Below are positions 24,028 to 30,262 of a stretch of DNA of 64,000 bases, one piece after another. The stretch comes from Bradyrhizobium sp. B124 (GTDB taxonomy: Bacteria > Pseudomonadota > Alphaproteobacteria > Rhizobiales > Xanthobacteraceae): contig NZ_CP152413.1 in the NCBI RefSeq assembly GCF_038967635.1, positions 5,460,001-5,524,000 of the forward strand, given 5' to 3'. The translations under genes and the position numbers were made by a program. A model generated the notes under the pieces. The model saw nothing but the letters and a program-made list of their open reading frames with translations. It had not been told where the DNA came from and made no database searches. Position 1 is the first letter of the stretch, and every line of letters begins with the position of its first letter.

Positions 24028-24182
24028 AGCTCGGTGTCCATTGCTTCGATGATGGATGAGAGGACCGGATCAGTCCGGCCGGATGGCCCGCGACCGGCGC
24101 CCGAAGGCACGCCGGCTGTTCCCGAAATGAAACCCATCACATCGTAAGCTGCGGCGTCTGTTCACTAGTGCACATAAACCCG

Positions 24183-24208
24183 GGAACTTTTTCAGTATGG
24201 TCGGCGTT
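24183..24208 (+). promoter_or_regulatory. EcfG-type general stress sigma promoter
   Basis: GGAAC (24183-24187), 17 bases, then CGTT (24205-24208). This matches the GGAAC-N16/17-CGTT consensus of alphaproteobacterial EcfG sigma factors. Transcription would start near 24214, leaving a short leader with GCAGGA before the ATG at 24228. That argues against an earlier start codon at 24168. Confidence 0.7.
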
Positions 24209-24227
24209 GGATTTGCAGGATTTCCCG

Positions 24228-24992
24228 ATGATTGCGAAACGGACCGATTTGGCCGGGACGAATGACCGGCCGTTCAACAACCTGTTGCGCCGGCTCAACG
24301 CCGCCGACTACGAACTGATCGCGCCGCATCTTTCGGTGGTCGAGGCGGCGGCCGGCGATCTGCTCTACAATCCCGGCGATGACGTTCAGATCGTCCATTT
24401 CCCATGCGGACCGAGCCTTGCGTCCTATCTGGTGGCCAACGAGGACGGCCGCGACGTCGAGACCATCCTGGTCGGCCGCGAGGGCGCCGTCGGCGGCATC
24501 GTCAGCCAGGGATTTCTGCCGGCCTTTACCCGCATCACCGTCAAGTTCGGCGGGCCGTTCGTGCGGCTGCCGATCAGCAAGCTCGACGCCGCGAAGCTGA
24601 CGTCGATCTCGGTGCGCAACATCTTCGCGCGCTATGCCGACTGCATGCTGGCGCAGATCTTCCAGTCGACCGCCTGCAACGCGATCCACTCGATCGAGCA
24701 GCGCGCCGCGAAATGGATCATCTCGGCGATCGAGCGCACCAATGGCGATGGCGTGGTGCCGCTGACGCATGAGCAGCTCTCGACCCTGCTCGGCGTCGGC
24801 CGCAGCTACACCAGCCGCGTGATCCAGAACTTCAAGGCGGAGGGCGTGCTGGACACGCGCCGCGGCGCGATCGTGATCCGCGACCCCGACAAGCTCAAGC
24901 TGCGCTCGTGCCTGTGCAACGACGCAGTGAAGGATCACTTCGAGGAAGTGCTACGCGGGGTGTATCCGAGCGAGGACAACCCGACGAACTAG
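24228..24992 (+). CDS. Crp/Fnr family transcriptional regulator
   Basis: A 254-residue regulator with an N-terminal cyclic-nucleotide-binding-like beta barrel (APHLSVVEAAAGDLLYNPGDDVQIVHFPCGPSLAS). This is followed by a long dimer helix (ARYADCMLAQIFQSTACNAIHSIEQRAAKWI) and a winged-helix DNA-binding domain (PLTHEQLSTLLGVGRSYTSRVIQNFKAEGVL). No FNR-type cysteine cluster is seen at the N-terminus. The Bradyrhizobium genus carries many such regulators; the ligand and targets are unknown. The upstream EcfG-like promoter suggests induction in stationary phase or stress. Confidence 0.88.
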   Translation: MIAKRTDLAGTNDRPFNNLLRRLNAADYELIAPHLSVVEAAAGDLLYNPGDDVQIVHFPCGPSLASYLVANEDGRDVETILVGREGAVGGIVSQGFLPAFTRITVKFGGPFVRLPISKLDAAKLTSISVRNIFARYADCMLAQIFQSTACNAIHSIEQRAAKWIISAIERTNGDGVVPLTHEQLSTLLGVGRSYTSRVIQNFKAEGVLDTRRGAIVIRDPDKLKLRSCLCNDAVKDHFEEVLRGVYPSEDNPTN

Positions 24993-25004
24993 GCTGGCAC
25001 ACGG

Positions 25005-25150
25005 CTCACCTCGCCCCGCTTGCGGGGAGAGGTCGGATCGCGCGAGCGATCCGGGTGAGGGGCGAGGCACACGACTCAACAAGCCGCGAGGTGCTCGCCG
25101 GATGGAAGCCCCTCACCCCAACCCTCTCCCCGTAAGAACGGGGAGAGGGA
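25005..25150. repeat. Intergenic repeat (CTCACC...CTCTCCCCGC family)
   Basis: CTCACCTCGCCCCGCTTGCGGGGAGAGG, GATCCGGGTGAGGGG and CCCCTCACCCCAACCCTCTCCCCG form an imperfect large palindrome. Related copies lie at 36567-36730 and 62399-62602. Confidence 0.82.
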
Positions 25151-25193
25151 GAACCTATATCGCCCAACGCGAAAATCACGCTACACTCGCCCC

Positions 25194-25913
25194 ATGAGTG
25201 GGGCTGAACTTCACGCCGTCTTCGACGTCGCAGCATGGTGCGCGGCCGCCGTCGCGATGTGGTGGCTGTCGCGGGTGCGGGGGCTGCAATTCCCGCGGCA
25301 ATCCTTCGAGCTGCCCTACATCGCCGCGCTGGTGTTCGGCGCCGGCATCGGCGCCTACATCTTCGGCACGCTGAACCTGTGGTTCTCGGGCGTGCCCGGC
25401 ATCGCCCGCTCGGTCGAGGGCGCGCTGGCCGGCGGCATCGTTGCGATCGAGCTCTACAAATGGCTGCATGGCATTTCGCTACGCACCGGGGCGCGGTTCG
25501 CGCTGCCGCTTGCGATCGGCGTCGCGGTCGGCCGGCTCGGCTGCTATTTCGCGGGGCTCGAGGATTTCACCTATGGCACGCCGACCACGCTGCCCTGGGG
25601 CCATGATTTCGGCGACGGCGTCCTGCGCCATCCGGTGCAGCTCTATGAAAGCCTGGCGATGGCGGCGTTCGCGGCCTTCTATGTCTGGGCCGCGTTGAAC
25701 CGCAACGCCGCATTCATCACCAATGGATTCTACCTCGTGCTGTTCTACTACGGCCTGCAGCGCTTCGTGTGGGAGTTCATCAAGCCGTATGGCGCGCTGA
25801 TCGGTCCATTCTCGCTGTTCCACCTGCTGTCGCTATTTGTCATGGTTTATGCCGCCGTCATGCTGGCGACGGCCCCGAATTTGAGCTTGAAGCATGAACG
25901 CGCCGCTGCGTAA
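25194..25913 (+). CDS. Divergent prolipoprotein diacylglyceryl transferase (Lgt)-like membrane protein
   Basis: A 239-residue polytopic membrane protein with about seven hydrophobic segments and recognisable Lgt landmarks. GRLGCYFAGLEDFTYG (113-128) stands at the GRIGNFINGELWGR signature. RHPVQLYES (145-153) and GLQRFVWEFIKP (187-198) match other conserved blocks. The HGG loop is replaced by EGALAGG (75-81), and the signature Asn is Cys117, so it is not the housekeeping Lgt. True Lgt moves diacylglycerol from phosphatidylglycerol to a lipoprotein Cys; this paralogue may handle a related lipid. It overlaps the radical SAM gene by 20 bases, indicating tight coupling. Confidence 0.82.
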   Translation: MSGAELHAVFDVAAWCAAAVAMWWLSRVRGLQFPRQSFELPYIAALVFGAGIGAYIFGTLNLWFSGVPGIARSVEGALAGGIVAIELYKWLHGISLRTGARFALPLAIGVAVGRLGCYFAGLEDFTYGTPTTLPWGHDFGDGVLRHPVQLYESLAMAAFAAFYVWAALNRNAAFITNGFYLVLFYYGLQRFVWEFIKPYGALIGPFSLFHLLSLFVMVYAAVMLATAPNLSLKHERAAA

Positions 25914-27342
25914 GTCCCGCCCTTACATCTTCTGGGGCCAGACCCAATCGCTTTGCGAGACCTGCCTGACCCCGGTGCCGACCAAGATCCAGATATCAGG
26001 CAACGAGGTCTGGTACGAGAAGCGCTGCAAGCAACACGGCGTGCAGTCGACCTTGGTCTCGACCGATGCGGCCTATTGGCGGCTGTGCAAGGATTTCATC
26101 AAGCCCGGCGACCGGCCGCTGGCCTTCCAGCGCCACACCGAATTCGGCTGTCCCTATGATTGCGGGCTGTGCCCGGACCACGAGCAGCACTCCTGCCTGG
26201 CGCTGATCGAGATCACCGAGCACTGCAACCTGACCTGCCCGGTGTGCTTTGCGGAGTCCTCGCCGGCGCGCACCAGCTTCACGCCGCTGGCGAAGATCGA
26301 GAAAATGCTCGATGCGCTGGTGGCGAGCGAGGGCGAGCCCGACCTGGTGCAGATCTCCGGCGGCGAGCCGACGCTGCATCCGGATTTCTTCGCCATTCTG
26401 GACGCGGTGCGCGCCCGCCCGATCCGTCACGTCATGATCAACACCAACGGCCTCAGAATCGCGCGCGAGCCGGACTTCGTGGCCAAGCTCGCCGAGAACA
26501 AGCGCGGGCTGGAAGTCTATCTGCAGTTCGATTCGCTGAAGCGCGAGGCGCTGGTCAATCTGCGCGGCGCGGACTTACGCAAGATCCGCCAGCAGGCGCT
26601 GGAGAATCTCGAGCGCGAGGGCGTCTCGACCACGCTGGTCGCGACCATCAAGCGCGGCGTCAACGACGCCGAGATCGGCGATATCGTCCGCCACGCGCTG
26701 ACCTGGACATGCGTCCGCGGCATCACGCTGCAACCGGTGCAGGACGCCGGCCGCAACGAGGATTTCAACAAGGACGCCGACCGCATCATGCTGTCGGAGA
26801 TCCGCCAGCACGTGATCGAGACCGGGGTGTTCGGCGACAAGGATATGATCCCGCTGCCGTGCAACCCCGAGAGCATCTCGATCGGCTACGGCCTGCGCAA
26901 CGGCGACAAGGTGCTGCCGCTGACCTCGCTGATCCCGCAGGAACAGCTCGTCGCCGTGATGCCCAACACGATCAGCCCGGAGAAATATCCGGTGTTGCGC
27001 GAGAAGTTCGTCGACCTGTTCTCGCTGTCGTCGGGGCCGCTGAACACCAGCGAGCGGGTCTGCGAATTGCTGTGCTGCCTGCCGAGCTTCGAAGTGCCGG
27101 ACGGCCTCACCTACGAGAACGTGTTCCGCGTCACCATCGTGCAGTTTCTCGATCGCTTCAACTTCTGCGTCGGCAACGTCAAGCGCAGCTGCATCCACTT
27201 CGTCACCGAGAGCGGCGCGATCGTCCCGTTCGACACCTACAATCTGTTCTATCGCGACGGAAAGATCGACGGCATCCGCGCGAGCCTGGCCGGGCAGACC
27301 TACCGCGAGGCGCGGCCGACGGAGGCGGAGGTGCCAAGGTGA
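25894..27342 (+). CDS. Radical SAM protein with multiple Fe-S motifs, tetraether lipid synthase (Tes/MJ0619)-like
   Basis: A 482-residue enzyme. The N-terminal region has C21xxC24 and C45xxH48, like a rubredoxin or zinc-ribbon site. Then come C86xxxC90xxC93 (GCPYDCGLCPDH) and the radical SAM triad C111xxxC115xxC118 (EHCNLTCPVCFAES), followed by QISGGEP at 153-159. Late cysteines (C323, C390, C394, C395, C425, C433) could hold a third cluster. This layout recalls archaeal Tes/MJ0619, which couples lipid acyl or isoprenoid chain ends; the resemblance is from memory. Its start overlaps the Lgt-like gene and its stop overlaps the next small gene (GTGA), so the three are translationally coupled. 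A membrane-lipid substrate is inferred. Confidence 0.85.
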   Translation: MNAPLRKSRPYIFWGQTQSLCETCLTPVPTKIQISGNEVWYEKRCKQHGVQSTLVSTDAAYWRLCKDFIKPGDRPLAFQRHTEFGCPYDCGLCPDHEQHSCLALIEITEHCNLTCPVCFAESSPARTSFTPLAKIEKMLDALVASEGEPDLVQISGGEPTLHPDFFAILDAVRARPIRHVMINTNGLRIAREPDFVAKLAENKRGLEVYLQFDSLKREALVNLRGADLRKIRQQALENLEREGVSTTLVATIKRGVNDAEIGDIVRHALTWTCVRGITLQPVQDAGRNEDFNKDADRIMLSEIRQHVIETGVFGDKDMIPLPCNPESISIGYGLRNGDKVLPLTSLIPQEQLVAVMPNTISPEKYPVLREKFVDLFSLSSGPLNTSERVCELLCCLPSFEVPDGLTYENVFRVTIVQFLDRFNFCVGNVKRSCIHFVTESGAIVPFDTYNLFYRDGKIDGIRASLAGQTYREARPTEAEVPR

Positions 27343-27587
27343 GCGATACCGGCGCGCGCCCCTCGCCTCCGTCACGTCCTCCGGAGCAGCGCAGCGGCTG
27401 CGTGACGGCGCTGATGATCGTCGCTGGCGTCATTCTGTTGCTGCCCGGCCTCTGCGCGCTGCTCTTCGTATTTGCCGGCATCGCCAAGACAGCATCTGAT
27501 GATCTTCAGTTCGTTGCCGCCTGCCTGCTTGTGGCGTGCTTCGGCGTGGCCCTGATCTGGTGGGCCATCCGCAGACCTGGCTCCTAG
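27339..27587 (+). CDS. Small membrane protein with SGC motif, paralogue 1 of 3
   Basis: An 82-residue protein starting at GTG 27339, which overlaps the radical SAM stop by four bases; GGAGGCGGAGG lies just upstream. A Pro/Arg-rich polar head (about 18 residues) leads to RSGCVTALMIVAGVILLLPG, then CALLF and a second hydrophobic segment (FVAACLLVACFGVALIWW). The SGC-x-T...LLLPG motif is shared with the next two genes. No known domain. Its place in the operon suggests a substrate or partner of the lipid-type enzymes. Confidence 0.78.
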   Translation: MSDTGARPSPPSRPPEQRSGCVTALMIVAGVILLLPGLCALLFVFAGIAKTASDDLQFVAACLLVACFGVALIWWAIRRPGS

Positions 27588-27627
27588 AGACGGCTCGCAT
27601 CACGAACCCACTGGTGGACCAACAGCC

Positions 27628-27891
27628 ATGAGCGAGACCAATCCCCCTCCCGTGCCGCCTGCACCAGCGCAGCCGCCCGCGCTGCCCCCGCCACGCAGCG
27701 GCTGCGCGACCGCGTTCATGGTGGTGTTCGGGCTGGTCCTGCTGCTGCCCGGGCTGTGCGCCCTCCTGTTCGGGATCGGTTCGCTGACCAACTCGAGCCT
27801 GGAGCCCGGCCTGCTGTTCCTGATCCTGCTCGGCCTTCTGGTCGGGTTCGCCGGCATCATGCTGATCCGGGCTGCGATCAAGGGGCGGTAG
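27628..27891 (+). CDS. Small membrane protein with SGC motif, paralogue 2 of 3
   Basis: An 87-residue protein: Pro-rich head (PPPVPPAPAQPPALPPP), then RSGCATAFMVVFGLVLLLPG, CALLFGIGSL and a second helix (LLFLILLGLLVGFAGIMLI) with a basic tail. It is closely similar to paralogue 1 around the Cys and first helix, but differs in the loop. It starts 40 bases after paralogue 1 ends. Function unknown. Confidence 0.8.
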   Translation: MSETNPPPVPPAPAQPPALPPPRSGCATAFMVVFGLVLLLPGLCALLFGIGSLTNSSLEPGLLFLILLGLLVGFAGIMLIRAAIKGR

Positions 27892-27912
27892 CCGTAGGAG
27901 GCGCGACGAATC

Positions 27913-28146
27913 ATGAGCAGCCTGGACCAACCGCCGCCGAACAGCCGTTGGCAACCGCGCCAAAGCAGCGGCTGTCTGACCTCGTTCATGCTGTTTCTGG
28001 GCGTCATCCTGCTGCTGCCCGGCGTGCTGTGTGCAGTCCTGATCGTCACCTCGGTCGAACCGGGCAGGGACCCATTCACGCCGGTGGTGATGTTGATCGC
28101 GCTTGGCGGCGTCGTATTGATCGTTTTGGCCCGTTCCCGGAAATGA
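27913..28146 (+). CDS. Small membrane protein with SGC motif, paralogue 3 of 3
   Basis: A 77-residue protein: polar head, SSGCLTSFMLFLGVILLLPG followed by VLCAVLIVTS, and a second helix (VVMLIALGGVVLIVLA) ending in RSRK. One extra residue separates PG from Cys relative to its paralogues. GTAGGAGGCGCGACG lies before the ATG at 27913. It is the last gene of the cluster; a promoter for another transcript begins about 80 bases later. Confidence 0.8.
   Translation: MSSLDQPPPNSRWQPRQSSGCLTSFMLFLGVILLLPGVLCAVLIVTSVEPGRDPFTPVVMLIALGGVVLIVLARSRK

Positions 28147-28435: not shown

Positions 28436-30262
<1,827 letters not shown>

Follow-up and report, generated by a model that had tools for sequence, protein, structure and literature searches.

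A stretch of 64,000 nucleotides (nt) from the genome of Bradyrhizobium sp. B124, a single contig of 9.17 Mb, was analysed (G000:C1:5460001-5524000, the whole of this stretch being referred to as the window). It was found to carry a cassette of five genes on the same strand, encoding a membrane protein with the fold of the lipoprotein-modifying enzyme Lgt (termed here the Lgt paralog), a radical S-adenosylmethionine (SAM) protein related to the tetraether synthase Tes, and three small membrane proteins, termed microproteins (Table 1). The open reading frame (ORF) coordinates confirmed the layout given in a preliminary description of this DNA, with the first genes overlapping by 20 nt and 4 nt and the later ones separated by gaps of 40 nt and 21 nt. 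The Lgt paralog, the radical SAM protein and the microproteins almost certainly form one real functional unit, and the cassette looks like an undescribed system for placing a special lipid on membrane proteins.

Table 1. Features of the cassette and of its flanks, with positions counted from the first nucleotide of the window
Feature	Length (amino acids)	Position	Strand	Remarks
Lgt-fold membrane protein (divergent Lgt paralog)	239	25194..25913	+	PF01790; profile match to 5azb
GRLGC signature of the Lgt paralog, residues 113-117		25530..25544	+	Cys117 at the place of the essential Lgt Asn146
Radical SAM protein, Tes/TrsS-like	482	25894..27342	+	PF04055, PF23545; match to 7tol
Microprotein 1, membrane protein	82	27339..27587	+	GTG as start codon; first 4 nt shared with the radical SAM gene
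Cys codons of microprotein 1		27399-27401; 27453-27455		SGC, inner end of first transmembrane segment; PGLC, outer end
Microprotein 2	87	27628..27891	+	Paralog of microprotein 1 (SGC, PGLC)
Microprotein 3	77	27913..28146	+	Paralog of microprotein 1 (SGC; second Cys in PGVLC, i.e. G-x-x-C)
Left flank, Crp-like regulator		24168..24992	+	Outside the cassette; name from reading of the sequence
Right flank, TypA/BipA-like GTPase		28436..30262	+	Outside the cassette; name from reading of the sequence

Comparison across genome sets, using profiles that were built partly from members of those sets, showed that the two enzymes are found together. Among 60 relatives (the strain itself included), the radical SAM protein and the Lgt paralog were identified in the same 14 genomes, namely 13 of the 36 members of the genus and genome G057. 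The small genes coincide with the pair in the same 13 genus genomes, own included, and the pair is present in other phyla. In 398 Pseudomonadota genomes both enzymes were found in the same 12, with the Lgt paralog scoring 257-283 bits and the next match 120 bits; the next four Lgt matches inspected below that drop were canonical (GRxGN). The radical SAM protein was identified in 16 of 198 Bacteroidota genomes and the Lgt paralog in 17, with all of the 16 being among the 17. A further genome scan returned at least 529 relatives of the radical SAM protein, the best 80 of which were kept, all Bacteroidota by title. Conserved adjacency to the Lgt-like gene, whose absence had been named beforehand as refuting the proposed link, was present here, with the Lgt paralog located upstream and on the same strand at 78 of the 80 loci, while the two loci without it (L037, L086) start at a contig end or close to one. 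An overlap with the radical SAM gene was found for 63 of these 78 paralogs (11 nt long in 41 of them), with five situated 0-100 nt and ten situated 183-3909 nt from it.

Loci combining the Lgt paralog, the radical SAM protein and one to three microproteins were identified in Pseudomonadota, Bacteroidota and Actinomycetota. A plasmid search gave ten records with a radical SAM relative, eight of which were opened, and an Lgt-like gene was found in four of them (Persicobacter, Nonomuraea, M. avium and M. branderi). No Lgt-like gene was found nearby in the four other opened records (M. vanbaalenii and three haloarchaea; L172 and L173 by annotation), which have a methyltransferase instead. On M. 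avium plasmid pS2b (L018) and M. branderi plasmid pJCM12687 (L171), two small genes lie between the members of the pair.

At the position of the cassette, the Crp-like gene was found to adjoin typA with no cassette DNA between them in all 12 of the pair-less genus genomes inspected (of 23). Trees of the Lgt paralog and the radical SAM protein were found to correlate (r 0.736 for 31 loci, a value inflated by shared ancestry, reached in 0 of 2000 permutations), and both group Pseudomonadota locus L132 with Bacteroidota (rooting being arbitrary), which argues for joint transfer. Due to these empty sites and the concordance of the trees, the unit seems to move and to be lost as a block. Chance neighbourhood of the genes was ruled out by the co-occurrence, by the empty sites and by the control of the microprotein scanner given below.

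The Lgt paralog was identified as a member of PF01790 with 67.5 bits against the Pfam gathering cut-off of 24.9, and its profile matched Escherichia coli Lgt (5azb) at 9.8e-19. The canonical Lgt of the strain (FHGG, signature Asn) is encoded by a separate gene (G000:C1:7008064-7008819), and the Lgt-like gene of the window is therefore a second, divergent copy. In E. coli numbering, the window paralog shares R143, G154, Y235, R239, E243 and the RHPxxLYE stretch with Lgt (5azb/5azc), but it differs in having His at Y26, Glu at H103 and Cys at N146, in having a radical SAM neighbour, and in missing the NCBIfam Lgt equivalog cut-offs (best model 51.1 of 334 bits; TIGR00544 27.1 of 118.9 bits). The Lgt fold with an altered signature that had first been described was upheld, as the protein matches PF01790 and profile alignments place Glu75 on H103 and Cys117 on N146. 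Residues reported to be absolutely required in E. coli Lgt are Y26, H103, R143, N146, G154 and R239, with N146 being replaced by Cys in more distant Lgt proteins (PMC13251419), and every substitution tried at H103 failed to complement (PMC4728403). In the alignments the paralog is thus shown to depart from Lgt at three of the six required residues, with its phosphatidylglycerol (PG)-binding arginines retained. The same Y26H and N146C signature is carried by MSMEG_5408, the second Lgt homologue of M. smegmatis, which differs in being regarded as an Lgt whose activity is presumed to be low (PMC13251419); the term 'radical SAM' is absent from the main text of that paper.

Twenty-one diverse Lgt-like proteins were compared, of which 20 share their genome or record with a radical SAM gene and one, that of L128, does not. 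R114 (R143), C117 (N146), G128 (G154), H146, P147, Y151, Y186 (Y235) and R190 (R239) were found to be invariant in all 21 (E. coli positions in brackets), while the Y26 position holds His in 18, Tyr in two (L124, L127) and Gln in one (L128), and the H103 position holds His in none. A larger set, containing duplicates, has Cys at the N146 position in 106 of 107 proteins, with the canonical Lgt of the strain itself being the sole exception. The Lgt paralogs of L054 and L085 are each read in two pieces. The paralog of L128 (L128:3156-3998, genome G477) stands alone and carries GRVGC, with no radical SAM partner in the genome at the threshold used. An AlphaFold (AF2) model of the window paralog was obtained with a pLDDT of 81.2 and a pTM of 0.72.

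Pfam domains PF04055 and PF23545 (zinc ribbon) were identified on the radical SAM protein. A search of solved structures returned tetraether synthase (7tol) as the best match by far (3.6e-58, with the runner-up at 1.5e-6), and a six-row profile of the protein matched 7tol at 4.1e-91, the homology to Tes (also GDGT-MAS; MJ0619) being nearly full length. The CxxC/CxxH site, the two CxxxCxxC motifs and the late cysteines noted earlier are all present, as C21/C24/C45/H48, C86/C90/C93, the radical SAM (RS) motif C111/C115/C118, and C323, C394, C395 and C433. When aligned to 7tol, three metal sites of Tes as given in PMC9433317 were found to be retained, namely the rubredoxin-type CX2C...CX2H, the N-terminal CX3CX2C with its His, and the RS CX3CX2C. 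The C-terminal [4Fe-4S] site of Tes, in which Met439 is labile (PMC9433317), was not kept, with Ile, Val, Ser and Asp being found at C438, M439, C455 and C470 (own count from the 7tol alignments). C433, which aligns with MJ0619 C456, is the only one kept of the four Cys near Met439, which are presumed to be ligands of the C-terminal cluster, whereas other Cys are conserved. C323 and C433 were found in 31 of 31 partner enzymes, C394/C395 in 26 and C86/C90/C93 in 28, with the last group missing from all three Actinomycetota members.

Among NCBIfam models, the radical SAM (seleno)protein TrsS (NF045646) was identified as the best, with 301 bits against a cut-off of 490 (327.6 for the Persicobacter member), while the Tes model (NF045702) gave 257.5 bits against 450. 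As both cut-offs were missed and the C-terminal Cys differ, the protein is placed by these scores and alignments in the Tes/TrsS group, outside both named families. Tes as its identity was ruled out by the NF045702 score and the C-terminal residues, and TrsS by its own score and by the window's five genes including no methyltransferase, its partners being Lgt-like and microprotein genes. The original assignment as a Tes-like radical SAM protein thus stands as regards kinship to Tes and fails as regards membership of that family. C323, C394 and C433 are also common to four relatives from loci with no Lgt paralog nearby (L016, L019, L172 and L173, from Mycolicibacterium and haloarchaea), all of which are methyltransferase-linked. 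TrsS is presumably adjacent to a methyltransferase (the TrsM link), as at these four loci. A predicted structure of the window protein was poor (pLDDT 54) and was not used.

All three microproteins of the window carry the SGC noted previously and a second Cys. No Pfam cut-off was reached by the 11 microproteins scanned and no NCBIfam cut-off by the eight scanned, the three of the window reaching neither; a holin identity was rejected, as the PF07332 matches of some microproteins were weak and far under the cut-off. A profile of the genus microproteins identified 23 copies, confined to the 13 pair-bearing genomes, where all of them lie at this locus. Bacteroidota microproteins are about 56-80 amino acids (aa) in length, are encoded downstream of the radical SAM gene and end in G-x-C-G or similar. 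They were matched at 79 of the 80 loci (all but L039, which is at a contig end), and the 103 matches are all on the same strand, with 102 within 800 nt. The number of G-x-C copies is one at 63 loci, two at 14 and three at two, while L045 has four matches, some without the Cys. In the 198-genome set the Bacteroidota microprotein profile matched seven genomes, all with the pair, and most of the remaining nine pair-bearing genomes were recognised by eye to have divergent microproteins. In eight Bacteroidota genomes nine of ten profile matches lie at the locus.

Using one scanner, a frame with G-x-C at the end of a transmembrane (TM) helix was found no more than 450 nt downstream of the radical SAM gene at 78 of 78 Bacteroidota loci with enough sequence and at 12 of 13 genus loci; the genus exception, L013, has its frame at 332 nt and was probably lost to a length filter. 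The scanner control gave none of 255 ORFs (of at least 300 aa, in 400 kb of the strain's own genome) and one of 347 ORFs (of at least 250 aa, in Bacteroidota loci). In other lineages this feature recurs in small membrane proteins that look unrelated, the genus motif being PGLC. M. avium encodes SAGYCTG and TAGICTG products between the two enzyme genes, and Nonomuraea an SAGICTG product ahead of the Lgt paralog; the G-x-C box is carried by both M. avium products and by the second M. branderi product, with the first M. branderi product being of 151 aa. At further loci holding both enzyme genes, a candidate microprotein was chosen by eye from a list of ORFs with a TM segment and Cys in 14 of 14 cases. 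A membrane protein of 66-67 aa with no G-x-C box is encoded between the Lgt paralog and the radical SAM gene at L058, L065, L079 and L083.

Small proteins that are encoded in tandem next to a radical SAM gene, diverge quickly and have a fixed Cys resemble the precursors of ribosomally synthesised and post-translationally modified peptides (RiPPs), and the first microprotein gene and the radical SAM gene have 4 nt in common at 41 of the 80 Bacteroidota loci. The radical SAM protein might therefore act on the microprotein itself in a membrane RiPP-like pathway, for example by C-S cross-linking of the Cys, with the Lgt paralog as its partner in the membrane, holding or finishing the product. This is considered unlikely, as the Cys is predicted to be periplasmic, yet the window radical SAM protein has no 19-residue stretch with a hydropathy above 1.6 and none long enough to span a membrane, and no SPASM or leader-binding domain was found on it with Pfam at E <= 1.

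The feature shared by the microproteins is a Cys, mostly in G-x-C, at what is predicted to be the outer end of a TM helix, with the rest diverging between lineages. Lys and Arg residues around the Cys helix number 439 before and 11 after it in 99 Bacteroidota copies, which places the Cys at the periplasmic face. By the charge rule, the helix was found to run from in to out with the Cys at its periplasmic end in 94 of these 99 copies (three ties; four of the 103 were set aside) and in 18 of 24 hand-picked others (four ties), where the script took the wrong Cys in some. Gly occupies position -2 of the Cys in 107 of 123 microproteins, with mostly Ile, Val or Leu at -1 and Gly or Ala at +1. The canonical lipobox is [LVI][ASTVI][GAS]C, and the microproteins, with mostly a G-x-C box, do not match it; the lipobox Cys of Lgt substrates is situated at the periplasmic side. 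The further Cys of the genus microproteins, in SGC, lies at the cytosolic edge of the first TM segment in eight of eight aligned copies, with SGW in the second copy of L009. The small SGC proteins had been proposed as substrates, anchors or regulators; they are members of the unit and substrate-like, but the Cys shared between lineages is the second, periplasmic one and not that of SGC.

A fixed Cys near the periplasmic face was thus found in both the Lgt paralog and the microproteins, the alignment of the latter having been pre-selected for G-x-C. These could together act as a disulfide relay in the membrane, serving the clusters of the radical SAM protein or sensing oxidants, and the radical SAM relative of L016, a locus with no Lgt, adjoins CcdA and a disulfide oxidoreductase gene. 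Such a thiol-redox module would leave the retained PG-binding arginines unexplained and is judged to be improbable.

With the replaced Lgt residues and the missing C-terminal sites of Tes, the two enzymes are, as judged from their sequences, neither Lgt nor Tes. The favoured reading, which is tentative and falls somewhat short of being probable, is that the radical SAM protein modifies a lipid which the Lgt paralog then attaches to the microprotein Cys. The radical SAM enzyme would act from the cytosol and, in the manner of Tes, activate an unreactive C-H in the tail of a phospholipid; Tes is described as holding lipid tails in hydrophobic pockets with a tail-C-S-cluster intermediate (PMC9433317). 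Its product would be an unusual PG-like lipid (branched, thiolated or tail-joined), with tail-to-tail coupling being possible. The Lgt paralog would take this lipid into its PG cavity and transfer it to the microprotein Cys from the periplasmic side, which the active site of Lgt faces (PMC4728403), perhaps with Cys117 taking part, and the end product would be a membrane microprotein with a special, possibly membrane-spanning, lipid. Action on a lipid tail is suggested by the kinship to Tes and the PG-binding partner, and lipidation of the Cys by its position, its topology and the otherwise diverging, often duplicated nature of the microproteins.

Alternatively, the product of both enzymes may be a free phospholipid that is chain-joined or C-H modified in another way, with the microproteins as scaffold or regulatory subunits whose Cys is structural. 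A purely structural subunit is not expected to hold one Cys while the rest of it diverges, nor to be duplicated, and no other lipid genes were noticed in the loci read, where no systematic search for conserved ones was made. Such a lipid-only pathway is regarded as quite unlikely, despite being in keeping with the relationship to Tes, with the retained PG-binding arginines and with the brGDGT (branched glycerol dialkyl glycerol tetraether) synthesis proposed for 456 bacterial Tes homologues (PMC8941075).

Several observations weigh against lipid attachment to the microprotein Cys as the function of the unit. The unit is computed and the chemistry of every step is inferred. With Y26, H103 and N146 replaced, the Lgt paralog may not be a transferase. 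A Foldseek search with its model returned no match at E <= 0.001, and the matches listed (50 of 84) did not include an Lgt; the assignment of the Lgt fold therefore rests on sequence profiles. Similarly, the radical SAM protein may have a substrate other than a lipid, given that it is unlike Tes in its C-terminal part and that the N-terminal cluster is lacking in the three Actinomycetota members. Genome G477 has the Lgt paralog only, and in G494 the enzyme genes are on different contigs and no microprotein was seen by eye. Microproteins of divergent loci were selected by eye, four of the 103 Bacteroidota matches have no Cys at the TM end (one of them looking spurious), and G-x-C is not strict, with G-x-x-C in copy 3 of the window and S-x-C in L121 and L123.

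At two divergent loci of the Bacteroidota sample, L124:2486-6088 (G581) and L127:2436-5942 (G616), the unit was found in an extended version, in which the radical SAM protein is accompanied by an ICMT-family methyltransferase (PF04140), a DUF4395 protein (PF14340), an Lgt paralog with GRFGCFFRGCCYG/GRVGCFFAGCCYG and a microprotein. The ICMT-family methyltransferase and DUF4395 hint at lipidated-Cys chemistry, as a pointer and not as proof.

A broader form of lipid attachment to the microprotein Cys, which is doubtful, would be a separate bacterial lipidation system. In this, a C-H-modified (possibly tail-coupled, membrane-spanning) phospholipid would be made by the radical SAM enzyme and attached to TM microproteins at the G-x-C box, with no signal-peptide cleavage, by an Lgt paralog that is dedicated to this task and has a catalytic Cys. 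The system would then include many of the genes at present counted as bacterial 'Tes homologues' or as 'second lgt copies'. With the cassette, partners and a candidate substrate become available for two orphan groups of enzymes, namely the N146C Lgt paralogs (e.g. MSMEG_5408) and the bacterial Tes homologues. In environmental surveys the latter are tallied as potential producers of brGDGT palaeo-temperature lipids (PMC8941075, PMC11868695), with homologues in 281 bacterial metagenome-assembled genomes and an activity called unconfirmed (PMC11868695). These survey tallies are misleading if such homologues serve protein lipidation, whereas a destination for chain-joined lipids is suggested by the cassette if the homologues do make them. 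The excerpts of PMC8941075 and PMC11868695 make no mention of Lgt, and 'Lgt' is absent from the excerpted main text of PMC11186832. Among the open-access papers listed, judged by titles and the openings of abstracts, no description of the cassette was found, subscription papers lying outside this comparison; within that scope it is the three-part system that appears new, with its enzymes coming from known superfamilies.

In the window, the interval between the Crp-like gene and the cassette (24993-25193) was observed by eye to contain palindromic repeat-like DNA.

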